27,582 nucleotides of DNA from a virus. The stretch lies in the IMG/VR virus record IMGVR_UViG_3300021091_000338, positions 1-27,582 of that record, one strand, 5' to 3'. The notes below the pieces were generated by a model. The model searched no databases and was not told where the DNA came from. It was given only the letters and a program-made list of their open reading frames with translations. Of the stretch, positions 463 through 5,661 are shown piece after piece. Positions within the stretch are counted from its first letter, which is position 1; each line of letters starts with the position of its first letter. The position numbers and the translations under genes were made by a program.

Positions 463-1758
463 TCATAAAGTTGGAGATGAATCAGAAAACCTACAGAATT
501 GTCCCTCATAATGAAGGTTTACAATGCCACATTCTCCATCTCTTTGTTTTGCGATGATGATGCAGGCCTCGCCGCTGGTCTCCTTGCGGTCGCGATTAAG
601 CAGCATCACGATGTCGGCGTCACGCTCGATCTGACCTGAGTCGGCTAGGTCGGTCAGCCGTGGCTGTCTGCCCTTTTCCTTTTCCGACTCTCGATTTAGC
701 TGAGCAAGGCAGAGCATGGCCACTCCGGTCTGTACTGCGACATCCTTGAGCTTGCCGCTGACCTCTGCGACCTCGTAGGTGCGTTTTTCTGCACGGTCGG
801 CTGCCTTGATTTTTTGGAGATAGTCGACGATGACAAGGCGGACCTGATGCTTGCGGACGGCCCGTCGCACGCTGGCTGTGATGGAGGAGATGCTGTGGCT
901 TGCTGCTCCATCTAGGAACCATAGTGGGCTGTGACTGATTTTGCCCGAGGCTGACATCATCTGCCTCATGTCGCTTTCGGTGAGGTCGCCACTCTTGAGA
1001 TTCTGCATCGGCACACTTCCGATCGTCGAAACCATCCTTCTCAGGATTGCCTCCTTAGACATCTCAAGACTGACAAACAAGGTCGGCACCTTGTTTTCGA
1101 CCGCTGCCTTATTGGCGATGGCAATGGCGATGGCAGTCTTCCCGATGGAGGGACGGGCAGCAATGATTGCCATCTCCCGATGCTGGAGGCCGTCGGTTTT
1201 GACGTCGAGCCAATGGAAGCCGGTGGCTATGCCTGACAAACTGCCCTTGCGATTGAACCGATCCTGCATTTGGTCTAGGAAGCTGCCGGCCACCTGTTTG
1301 CTGGTCGAGAGAGTCTCACGGGACACGTCAATGCTGAGTCCTGCTTCCGCATTGGAGACGATTTCGTCCGGCTTGAGGGTTAGGACAGCGGAGTCGCGCA
1401 TCAGGCGATCTCCGGTGTCTTTGAGCTGGCGCCGATGGGCGGCCTCGGTGATGCCCTGCGTGTAGTACGGCAGATTGGCGGGCGATGGGCAGGCTGCCAT
1501 TGCCTTGTTCCAGGCCTCAAACGGAATCGGAAACTCGCCGTAGGCCTTCTTCCATTCCTTTGCCAGTTCTTGGAGGGTCGGGCTTTTGTTCTGCTGCACC
1601 AATCCGCGGATGGCATCGAAGGTCAACCGGAGGTCGTCCTGGGTAATCCAGGAGCTATGCACATCTGCCAAGGCATCCGAGCAGGTATCGATGTCTCCGG
1701 TTAGGCAGGCGCCAATCATGCCTGATTCATCCTCGGTCGGATAATAGGGGTCGCTCAT
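463..1758 (-). CDS. dnaB-like: DnaB-type replicative DNA helicase
   Basis: This 431-residue protein should be the hexameric helicase that unwinds the fork 5' to 3' during phage replication. The N-terminal helical domain spans about 5-110. The RecA-like ATPase domain runs from about 170 to the end, with Walker A ARPSIGKT (201-208), Walker B VRLVIVDYLQ (D312) and downstream motifs LAQLNRE and ERDADIVMLLNRD. Its length is typical of DnaB proteins (about 420-470). The ATG at 1758 overlaps the stop of the DUF1376 gene as ATGA and is preceded by a good Shine-Dalgarno (GGAGGG, about 7 bases upstream). The upstream DUF1376 protein is the likely initiator or loader. No primase is present, so the host primase is presumably used. 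Confidence 0.95.
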   Translation of the reverse strand: MSDPYYPTEDESGMIGACLTGDIDTCSDALADVHSSWITQDDLRLTFDAIRGLVQQNKSPTLQELAKEWKKAYGEFPIPFEAWNKAMAACPSPANLPYYTQGITEAAHRRQLKDTGDRLMRDSAVLTLKPDEIVSNAEAGLSIDVSRETLSTSKQVAGSFLDQMQDRFNRKGSLSGIATGFHWLDVKTDGLQHREMAIIAARPSIGKTAIAIAIANKAAVENKVPTLFVSLEMSKEAILRRMVSTIGSVPMQNLKSGDLTESDMRQMMSASGKISHSPLWFLDGAASHSISSITASVRRAVRKHQVRLVIVDYLQKIKAADRAEKRTYEVAEVSGKLKDVAVQTGVAMLCLAQLNRESEKEKGRQPRLTDLADSGQIERDADIVMLLNRDRKETSGEACIIIAKQRDGECGIVNLHYEGQFCRFSDSSPTL

Positions 1759-2492
1759 AGCGAGTCCCTCCAGTCGATTGCCTGTTTTTCCGCGCCTCTA
1801 CTTCCTATTGCATCAGGGCGTTCTTTGAGGCGTGCCCACCAGTTCCTGAGAGCAGCAGGCCATGACTTCATCGGGTTCTTGCCTACCCGCCACCCGTTCG
1901 ACTCGTAGTAGTTCAGGAACTTGTCGACCTCAATGGCAGGGAGGCCAATCCGGGCAGCCTCGATGTGCAGTTGCTCCGAGCTCGGCTTCTGGAACCGAGC
2001 GGAAGGCGGCTTGTCCGCCTGTATCTTATTAATAGGAGATGGAGATGGAGAGCCATCATCTGGCCATGCTGTGGCCAATGGGGTCGCCATCGTTTGGCCA
2101 TTGGGGTCGCCATCGTCTGGCCATTTTTTCCATCGTTTCTTGGCCCCATTGAGGCCTGCGGCTGCTTGTTTTGCCCGGAAAGCCTGCTGTTCCTCCCTGA
2201 TCCTCTCGAGTCGAGGGTGCTGGAGCGTATGGCCAACGGATAGCGAGAACTTAGCCAGGACATAGCCAAAACATGGCGACCCCATCAGTCCTGCGATGCG
2301 TGCTGCACGGTCTTGGTCAGCCGGGATGCCGCCGTGCGTCCATTGATGGCAGAGCAACCGGATGAGCCCGCCGACCTCCTCGGCGGTCATGTCGGCGGTT
2401 CCGGCGATGAAGTCGTCGGCGTAAAGCTGGAAGGCTGGTGGCCGGCCCTTTTCTTTCCTTGTTTGCATCGATGAATTGATTGGCCTACCCAT
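1755..2492 (-). CDS. DUF1376-type replication initiator/organiser-like protein
   Basis: This encodes 245 residues. The N-terminal region (AFQLYADDFIAGTADMTAEE, about residues 20-90) matches DUF1376, a domain common in phage replication genes. A Pro/Ser/Asp/Gly-rich linker follows, then a C-terminal segment (YESNGWRVGKNPMKSWPAAL) of the kind found in phage replisome-organiser proteins. It lies directly before the DnaB gene and overlaps it by ATGA, so a role in origin recognition or helicase loading is likely but inferred. ATG 2492 overlaps the upstream stop (ATGGGTAG); an alternative Met lies at 2468. The linker-coding DNA carries 23-bp periodic repeats that look like iterons. Extending the frame upstream to 2633 would run through the zinc-protein gene and is rejected. 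Confidence 0.85.
   Translation of the reverse strand: MGRPINSSMQTRKEKGRPPAFQLYADDFIAGTADMTAEEVGGLIRLLCHQWTHGGIPADQDRAARIAGLMGSPCFGYVLAKFSLSVGHTLQHPRLERIREEQQAFRAKQAAAGLNGAKKRWKKWPDDGDPNGQTMATPLATAWPDDGSPSPSPINKIQADKPPSARFQKPSSEQLHIEAARIGLPAIEVDKFLNYYESNGWRVGKNPMKSWPAALRNWWARLKERPDAIGSRGAEKQAIDWRDSL
2035..2052. repeat. Hexamer GGAGAT repeats and AT-rich stretch beside the iteron array
   Basis: The plus strand reads GGAGAT twice and then GGAGAG, encoding the SPSPSP run of the DUF1376 protein. It is preceded by the locally AT-rich TCTTATTAATAGG (2024-2036). Its position next to the 23-bp repeats resembles the purine-rich/AT-rich flank of lambdoid origins, but the tract is short and could reflect only the protein linker. 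Confidence 0.5.
2061..2145. repeat. Iteron-like array, candidate phage replication origin
   Basis: On the plus strand TGGCC begins at 2072, 2095, 2118 and 2141, exactly 23 bp apart, with one extra TGGCCA at 2061. The units at 2072 and 2095 differ at only two of 23 bases, and share GGGGTCGCCATCGT. The unit at 2118 keeps TGGCCAT and CCATCGT around a T-run. Because 23 is not a multiple of three, the repeated DNA is read in different frames and does not make a protein repeat, which argues for a DNA-level function. The array sits inside the initiator-like gene, as lambda iterons sit inside gene O. Origin function is inferred. Confidence 0.6.
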
Positions 2493-2733
2493 CGACCACC
2501 ACTGTTTGGTATTCCGACCGTTTTTTTGGAAGCACCGTAATGTAGTAGCCTTTGTTGTACAACGGACTGCCTCGATGACAATGGGCGATCCGATGCTCCG
2601 CATCCGAATCCGGCGTCTCCTTCGACCACCCATGGATGTGGGTCTTCCTGCAGTATGGGCACCACACCTCCAGCGTTGTCCCGTTTCGATGCCCAGCCAG
2701 CAACGGCCACGCCTTTTTGTTCCAGCGTTTCAT
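2485..2733 (-). CDS. Small zinc-binding phage protein (CPYC...H...HC type)
   Basis: This encodes 82 residues. C25-P-Y-C28 is followed by THIHG (H32, H34) and HRIAHCH (H47, H51, C52, H53), an arrangement well suited to binding one zinc ion. Short phage and prophage proteins with a WCPYC...H.HG...HR.AHC pattern are widespread in replication regions, and their function is not established. The ATG at 2733 lies one base after the stop of the exonuclease gene, and the 3' end overlaps the DUF1376 start by 8 bases. It is thus in the same transcription unit as replication genes and may help DNA or RNA binding. Confidence 0.75.
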   Translation of the reverse strand: MKRWNKKAWPLLAGHRNGTTLEVWCPYCRKTHIHGWSKETPDSDAEHRIAHCHRGSPLYNKGYYITVLPKKRSEYQTVVVDG

Positions 2734-2734
2734 T

Positions 2735-3403
2735 TCACGAGATGGTTTGAATGAGGATGTTTGCGACCTGCTGGGTGAGCTGTACGTCGCGCAGGCAGTA
2801 GTTGATTGCCGCCTGCCTGTCGGTCTGCCAGAGCTCGTGGAAGTGCGCCCCGCTGCCCAGCTTCTCGCCGAGGCCTAAGTGCCGGGAGATGGCAGCCAGG
2901 CTGCCATGCGCTCTGGAGTCGCCTAGCTGCCAGACCTCGCGCAGGTCGACGATCCCATCGTGCCAGTACCGGCCATTACGGAGCCAATAGGGTGGGACGA
3001 TGCCGTGCTTCCAAGATCGTTTAAACAGGAACGGGAGGTCGAAGGCTTTGATGTTGAAGCCGATCAACCGCGGATGCCGGCTGTCCCGCGGCCTGCAAAG
3101 GCTCCAGAACTGCCGGAGCATCTCTGCCTCGCCGTCGGCATCGGCGCACAGGATGCTGATCTCCTCGTGCTCGTAGCGGTAGCCGATGCAGAGCACCTGT
3201 CCGCTGAGTGCATCGAGCGCCGCGTTCTTGATGTAGTCGGCCTGGTGGTTCTCCTCGGCCTTCTGAATTTTCTCGGCAATGAGGTCCGGGTTCTTGGTGT
3301 TCCCGACTTTTACGTCTGCCGGATTGAATGGCGGGATGACCAGCTCGTTGAACGGCAACGGCCCGGTCTCAATGTCGAAGTAGATGGTGGGTGATTGTGG
3401 CAT
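2735..3403 (-). CDS. DnaQ-like 3'-5' exonuclease (DEDDy, DNA polymerase B exonuclease type)
   Basis: This 222-residue protein carries the three exonuclease motifs: Exo I YFDIETGP (D10, E12), Exo II GFNIKAFDLPFL (D122) and Exo III NYCLRDVQ (Y202, D206). These are the DEDDy metal-binding residues of the 3'-5' exonuclease domain of family B polymerases. It should remove nucleotides from DNA 3' ends in proofreading, repair or recombination. No polymerase domain follows and none is encoded elsewhere in the window, so it must act alone or with host enzymes. The leader is C/A-rich without a Shine-Dalgarno sequence. It is followed one base later by the zinc-protein gene. Confidence 0.88.
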   Translation of the reverse strand: MPQSPTIYFDIETGPLPFNELVIPPFNPADVKVGNTKNPDLIAEKIQKAEENHQADYIKNAALDALSGQVLCIGYRYEHEEISILCADADGEAEMLRQFWSLCRPRDSRHPRLIGFNIKAFDLPFLFKRSWKHGIVPPYWLRNGRYWHDGIVDLREVWQLGDSRAHGSLAAISRHLGLGEKLGSGAHFHELWQTDRQAAINYCLRDVQLTQQVANILIQTIS

Positions 3404-4997: not shown

Positions 4998-5209
4998 AGC
5001 TCCTCCTCCTCCTGCCAAAAATCTAGAGCCTCCGGTCGTGTGGTCTTTAGCCCCAGCCGGATCAAGTGTCTGATCCGGTCGTTCTTCTGGCGGCAGATGT
5101 TGCGACTGGCATCCAGATCCCACCGCAGCGTCTGGATGATGTGGTTGAGCTCCCACACCTCCTGCTTCAGCTTGGCAAGGTCGCTCGGCATGGTGTGTTT
5201 CTGGCTCAT
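4994..5209 (-). CDS. Small coiled-coil hypothetical protein, 71 aa
   Basis: The product begins MSQKHTMPSDLAKLKQEVWE and has heptad-like spacing of Leu/Ile/Val through about residues 10-55, followed by an acidic end (FWQEEEEL). It is probably a helical, oligomerising accessory protein; no family is recognised. The ATG at 5209 overlaps the stop of the RuvC-like gene as ATGA and carries a GGAGGG Shine-Dalgarno about six bases upstream. A longer in-frame reading to 5398 is rejected because it would run through the resolvase gene. Confidence 0.7.
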   Translation of the reverse strand: MSQKHTMPSDLAKLKQEVWELNHIIQTLRWDLDASRNICRQKNDRIRHLIRLGLKTTRPEALDFWQEEEEL

Positions 5210-5661
5210 TTGATTCCCTCCGAGAGCATTGCGTGCTCGAGCAGCAGCACCGCGTCCGCGGTCTTGAGCGTGATGACTAGGCCGGGCTGCCTCTGCTGGG
5301 CGATACCCTTGAGGTGCGCCTTCCACCGCGTGCCGTGCGTTGCCTTGGTGCCGGCGCCTAGCGTCTTCTGCCACCGTTGCGGCGGCACCTCGATGCACCT
5401 GGTCTTGCTGGCCGAGATGAGGCCGTGCAGGAAGCCGACGTTGCGCCCGAAGTTGAACATCGAGCTCCCGGGGGCGCCCTTCCCGCCGACGTAGCCGCCG
5501 ACCCGCTCAATGTAGACCACATCCGAGATCGCCAGCCGGTCCATCACCAGGATGCTGACGTCCTGGTCGGTGGCCGGCATGGAGTCGAGGATGATGCCCG
5601 CGGCGCCCAGGTAGGCCAGGCCGCCGCTTGCCCCAGGGTCAATGGCGAGGATGCGCTTCAT
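5206..5661 (-). CDS. ruvC-like: RuvC-like Holliday junction resolvase
   Basis: This 151-residue protein has the RNase H-fold signature of RuvC: ILAIDPGASGG with D8, VVYIERVGG with E52, and KTADAVLLLEHA with D136. These acidic residues should bind two metal ions. It would cut four-way junctions or branched DNA to resolve recombination intermediates and trim concatemers before packaging. The length is slightly short of bacterial RuvC (about 170). The ATG at 5661 overlaps the upstream stop as ATGA and has a GGAGGG Shine-Dalgarno. It lies in a run of coupled genes from the ParB-like protein to the SSB-like protein. Confidence 0.88.
   Translation of the reverse strand: MKRILAIDPGASGGLAYLGAAGIILDSMPATDQDVSILVMDRLAISDVVYIERVGGYVGGKGAPGSSMFNFGRNVGFLHGLISASKTRCIEVPPQRWQKTLGAGTKATHGTRWKAHLKGIAQQRQPGLVITLKTADAVLLLEHAMLSEGIK

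Follow-up and report, generated by a model that had tools for sequence, protein, structure and literature searches.

A DUF1376 gene as a probable phage replication initiator with a candidate iteron origin in its own coding sequence

Here, I report that a DUF1376 gene of a virus very probably encodes a phage replication initiator and contains, among its own codons, the origin of replication. The DNA analysed (the window) is a linear fragment of 27,582 bp that makes up one complete IMG/VR record, and the gene lies near its end. The reading best supported by these sequence comparisons is an in-gene iteron origin of the lambda/P22 type, with a DUF1376 initiator and a phage DnaB encoded downstream: the gene holds arrays of helically phased repeats beyond what coding constraint explains, an AT-rich tract adjoins them, a helicase gene follows, and the iterons go with the N-terminal module of the protein. 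From these features I infer DNA binding, strand opening, helicase loading and origin activity, the first three because of the precedents set by lambda, P22 and SPP1 (PMC7466680, PMC6316719) and because of the gene order.

The candidate initiator gene and its repeats

The protein matches Pfam PF07120 (DUF1376) with E=3e-7 and 31 bits, against a gathering threshold of 30.1, as well as PHROG 'primosomal protein' families, and the equivalent of its start Met is used in relatives (Table 1). In the AlphaFold2 model, the N-domain (aa 11-115) consists of helices, the last of them long, and a small pair of strands, with a core pLDDT of ~85-94, and the linker (aa 119-153) is predicted to be disordered, with pLDDT <50. 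Searches of PDB folds with the full protein and with the N-domain returned mostly winged-helix matches, none of them significant, the nearest to the N-domain being the winged helices of MotA, the DnaD N-domain and ORC2 (below significance); a sequence search against solved structures found nothing convincing. No similarity of the N-terminal domain to lambda O emerged from the Pfam and PHROG scans, whose matches were limited to DUF1376, 'primosomal protein' families and families of unknown function. The C-terminal domain is presumed to be the contact with the helicase or primosome.

Table 1. Positions in the window of the candidate initiator gene, its proposed origin elements and neighbouring genes
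Feature	Position	Strand	Description
DnaB-type replicative helicase gene	463..1758	-	directly downstream of the initiator gene; Pfam DnaB_C 9e-76; PHROG 19
Candidate initiator gene	1755..2468	-	ATG at 2468, 237 aa; DUF1376 N-terminal domain, disordered linker, C-terminal domain
C-terminal domain codons	1818..2003	-	NYYESNGWxVGKNPMKSW type; three helices in AlphaFold2, pLDDT ~76-90
Perfect 6-bp stem, AGGCGG-CTTGT-CCGCCT	2004..2020	.	adjoins the AT-rich stretch
AT-rich stretch	2021..2040	.	candidate DNA-unwinding element
6-bp repeat tract	2035..2051	-	coding CTCCAT repeats, Ser-Pro; strand-asymmetric; GGAGAT x2.8 in Tandem Repeats Finder
Linker iteron array	2045..2124	-	seven ATGGC-type units in 11/12-bp steps, the last running into the hexamer tract
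DUF1376 domain codons	2124..2438	-	aa 11-115; predicted winged-helix-like
Second iteron array	2229..2284	+	five units, starts 2229, 2240, 2251, 2262, 2273
Exonuclease-like gene	2735-3403		near the DUF1376 gene; Pfam/PHROG
Holliday-junction-resolvase-like gene	5206-5661		near the DUF1376 gene; Pfam/PHROG

The order of the DUF1376 gene before DnaB, part of the original prediction for this DNA, is borne out by Pfam, the helicase gene overlapping the initiator stop by 4 bp. Between the exonuclease-like and the DUF1376 genes, a small ORF (2485-2733, minus strand) displays a zinc-ribbon-like motif, CPYCRKTHIHGW; Pfam and PHROG scans found no family match for it. An Rfam scan of the first 6 kb of the window gave no match.

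The original prediction read TGGCC words starting at 2061, 2072, 2095, 2118 and 2141 as 23-bp iterons of a lambda-like origin. All five positions are right, and Tandem Repeats Finder does return a period of 23 (2063-2123 and 2072-2125), yet 23 bp is not the unit, since 23 = 11 + 12; on the coding strand, units start at 2124, 2113, 2101, 2090, 2078 (as TTGGCC), 2067 and 2056. The array is situated in or next to the part predicted by AlphaFold2 to be disordered. The lambda-like reading is kept, with a shorter unit and with a second array that had been overlooked.

This second array falls in the codons of the DUF1376 domain, its units exactly 11 bp apart (Tandem Repeats Finder period 11 at 2240-2274) and opposite in orientation to those of the linker, so that the two arrays are divergent; it forms an inverted-repeat pair with 2078-2101. 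Outside the two arrays, no chain of at least two such units occurs in the 27.6-kb window. If the origin reading is true, an array in the codons of a structured domain would be a clear case of bases serving both a DNA and a protein function.

In the coding direction, the linker array is followed by the CTCCAT tract, an AT-rich 14-mer and the 6-bp stem, in this order. GGAGAT repeats had been noticed beside the array, and they are there, but on the non-coding strand, as the gene runs on the minus strand and the coding repeat is CTCCAT; the short AT-rich stretch thought to flank the repeats also exists, since CTATTAATAAGATA, the most AT-rich 14-mer of the gene, is found within 2021-2040, a 20-mer in the top 0.26% of the window. 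The hexamer tract is possibly one for strand opening or helicase loading. The stem was rejected as a lambda-like palindrome, being present only in genes with one C-terminal type. GC skew is dominated by gene orientation both in the window, where the gene is close to one end of a linear fragment, and in four relatives of 40-44 kb, in which no consistent minimum occurs at the gene; it lends no support to an origin there.

Repeats were compared with a null model in which synonymous codons are permuted within the gene, preserving protein and codon usage. Off-frame and inverted 8-mer pairs in the DUF1376 gene number 30, against 6.1±3.6 expected, and 0 of 2000 shuffles reach 30; by the same count, E. 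coli ydaV and the exonuclease and DnaB genes do not leave their null ranges, or barely do so. The earlier argument that protein constraint is insufficient to account for repeats read out of codon frame is thus upheld, and chance or protein constraint as their source is ruled out by the synonymous shuffles. This pair count is the strong test; the single-array chain test is weaker (the observed chain length of 5 is also reached in 13 of 5000 synonymous shuffles).

N-terminal modules and their repeats among relatives

Relatives were taken from 44 loci whose DnaB is 75-82% identical to that of the window, identity being 100% in two. The gene before DnaB usually carries one of four N-terminal modules, combined with interchangeable C-termini. 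Module A is that of the window; like A, modules B and C either fall within DUF1376 or are similar to it (Pfam bits are 34.8 for type B and 23.3, i.e. below threshold, for type C), and module D is an unrelated N-domain that starts MIIEPDF and has no Pfam match. Each has its own repeat in the linker DNA, namely GCGACCCCAATGGCC in type A, GCATTGCC/ATATGCC in type B, CAACCGGA every 11-12 bp in type C and GGTTAACCCA in type D. A second cluster in the DNA-binding-domain codons is present in types A, B and C and absent from D, with z scores at the 11-bp lag of 11.4, 13.1 and 11.4 for A, B and C, respectively.

Repeated 7-mers were learned on genes with one C-terminal type and scored on genes with the other: they cover 34-52% of the linker where the N-type is the same and the C-type differs, and 0-8% in other N-types. 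The repeat belongs to the N-domain because the learned words cover linkers of the same N-type across C-terminal swaps; as judged from word content, the iteron sequence is specific to the cognate N-terminal domain and not to the C-terminal one. Module types and boundaries were defined on the sequences that prompted the idea, and only this cross-test and the held-out set (see below) are independent of them. Loss of the periodicity from a retained linker would have spoken against the original prediction; relatives were instead found to vary freely in linker peptide, and in unit number as well, while retaining the 11/12-bp phasing.

Other architectures occur as well. In the gene at 1464-2165 of L079, which shares the C-terminal domain without being DUF1376, a long CCCTCG tract encodes (Ser-Pro)n. 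By eye, extra domains are seen at or near the iteron linker of the DUF1376 genes of L154, L150, L187 and L219; such inserted domains are HNH-like (Desulfobacterales), GIY-YIG/T5orf172-like (Kosakonia) or possibly nuclease-like, of ~110-120 aa (E. coli), and they are possibly homing elements targeting the origin.

Known in-gene origins, the proposed scheme and its alternatives

The same shuffle statistic gives z 11.7 for lambda O, z 16.6 for gp18 of phage L, which has an annotated putative ori, and z 6.2 for P22 gp18, where 37 of 42 repeat ends are in one 120-bp stretch largely overlapping the annotated rep_origin; neither lambda P nor P22 gp12 shows an excess. TP901-1 rep, which I take to carry an in-gene origin, scores z 0.5, with no repeat excess, and therefore the test misses some in-gene origins.

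The closest in repeat length is Salmonella phage L, for whose gene 18 six ~11-bp repeats, TGTCCAACGGA, were proposed as origin from sequence (PMC8022706). Like the window, it has an initiator gene with ~11-bp repeats midway along it and then a DnaB-type helicase gene, whereas its N-terminal domain resembles another helix-turn-helix type and not DUF1376. P22 has an initiator gene 18 with an internal origin, directly followed by the DnaB-like helicase gene 12; it differs in its O-like N-domain and in its repeats, four of ~20 bp (PMC8022706). In lambda, too, iterons in the middle of gene O precede an AT-rich tract (PMC7466680, PMC3349717), but they are four, of 18 bp and 20-24 bp apart, the next gene is P rather than a phage DnaB, and the AT-rich tract of the window is shorter and less AT-rich than the 38 bp of lambda (PMC3349717). 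SPP1 has oriL within gene 38 (PMC6316719), and differs by a separate helicase loader, gp39, and a second origin, oriR.

Along the same line, the linker of YdaU (DUF1376, 92.4 Pfam bits) from the Rac prophage of E. coli K-12 contains TGTTCAAACA direct repeats and a TGTTTGAACA inverted repeat, followed by ATAAAG/ATACAG hexamers, with a repeat excess of z ~4 (4 of 2000 synonymous shuffles). It thus shares with the window the domain, the direct and inverted linker repeats and the hexamer tract, and differs in the next gene, which encodes a putative ATP-binding protein, YdaV, and not DnaB. Among E. coli ydaU copies, N-domain and repeats are constant and the C-terminus changes; in YdaU relatives from E. 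coli and Leclercia (L230, L143), the C-terminus is a Pfam DnaT domain and not of the K-12 type. A viral-contig scan led by a YdaU alignment retrieved almost only near-identical Rac copies. Rac is reported to have an active origin, oriJ (PMC3945230), and no mapping of oriJ to ydaU was found in the open-access literature searched.

By analogy with these systems, the N-terminal domain would bind an 11-12-bp site, present as one array in the linker codons and as a second, divergent one in the DNA-binding-domain codons. Spaced by roughly one helical turn on one face of the DNA, the bound protomers would wrap or stretch it; the initiator complex would open the CTCCAT-repeat/AT-rich tract (2021-2051), and the C-terminal domain would load the phage's DnaB, the product of the following gene.

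It is improbable that the repeats are sites of the DUF1376 protein for regulation only (autorepression, copy-number control or incompatibility), the origin lying elsewhere. Initiators often bind additional regulatory sites, and regulatory binding cannot be told from initiation binding by sequence. However, no sigma-70-like promoter pattern was found near the arrays, the hexamer/AT-rich tract comes after the linker array as an AT-rich tract comes after the iterons of lambda (PMC7466680), DnaB is adjacent, and in P22 and phage L the same layout is annotated as origin.

A role of the repeats, or of the hexamer tract, as recombination junctions that promote swaps of N- and C-terminal modules appears highly improbable. 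Swaps do occur near the hexamer tract, which is common to types A, B and C and also to YdaU variants with different C-termini; yet the swapping may be a by-product of tract homology, and type-specific iterons, helical phasing and the array in the DNA-binding-domain codons would be left unexplained. Functionless repeats, generated by tandem duplication or slippage in an unconstrained linker, can hardly be credited: disorder is predicted for the linker and its peptide is variable among relatives, but copies are found in both orientations and inside a structured domain, the same words are kept in diverged relatives and through C-terminal swaps, N-terminal domains unrelated to one another have the 11/12-bp phasing, and control genes contain nothing comparable, simple slippage being disfavoured by the inverted copies, the second array and the conservation across types.

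Possible generality of the candidate in-gene origin among phage initiators

Returning to the in-gene origin, a z of ~3 or more is reached in ~60 of 89 distinct related initiators, many of which are near-duplicates, as compared with 8 of 179 control ORFs from the same loci above 3 (mean z 0.46, sd 1.4); four of these eight, including the top two, turn out to be helix-turn-helix initiator-like genes that lie upstream of DnaB relatives. In 25 clusters of <60% identity, the lag spectrum has z scores of 9.8 at 11, 5.4 at 12, 8.2 at 22 and 6.9 at 23 bp. Of the 25 initiator clusters, 8 have a strong 6-bp tract; of 164 control genes, 3 do.

The held-out set comprised 17 DUF1376 genes of named phages, of Pseudomonas, rhizobia, cyanobacteria, acetic-acid bacteria, Acinetobacter, Azospirillum, Methylophilaceae, marine Vibrio, Thalassomonas and Moraxella. 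Taken together, they score z 7.2 at lag 11, 8.6 at lag 22 and 4.9 at lag 23; individually, 8 of the 17 are above z 3, and several have no repeats detectable by the exact-word test. No repeats were detected, either, in the genes found in the initiator position of L126, L137 and L132, and the origins of these phages may, on this evidence, lie elsewhere.

Whether these data amount to a general rule is evenly poised, namely that many helix-turn-helix-type phage initiators, including DUF1376, have their cognate origin in the initiator gene, as helically phased 11/12-bp sites, often in two arrays (one over the DNA-binding-domain codons), with a strand-asymmetric 6-bp tract behind them. If such a rule were true, phages would exchange N-domain and iterons together, as a single cassette, and origins and the recognition codes of initiators would be readable from sequence in thousands of uncharacterised phages and prophages. 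Many phages and prophages, E. coli Rac among them, have DUF1376, a domain of 'unknown function'; if the origin reading is true, its function would be that of an origin-binding initiator, a simple sequence test would predict the origin in such phages, and natural module swaps would supply recognition domains already paired with their DNA sites.

In-gene iteron origins are already known, one having been proposed with ~11-bp repeats in phage L (see above). In the open-access literature searched, DUF1376 is seldom mentioned, and no paper linking it to an origin was found; as far as this search reaches, the DUF1376 assignment, the 11/12-bp split, the second array in the DNA-binding-domain codons and the cassette of N-domain plus iterons are new. 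In one DUF1376 gene, that of Vibrio phage 1.183 (MG592549; L270, 1855-1884), a stretch is annotated as 'CRISPR spacer', and it may be the repeat region of the gene, mistaken for a CRISPR array.
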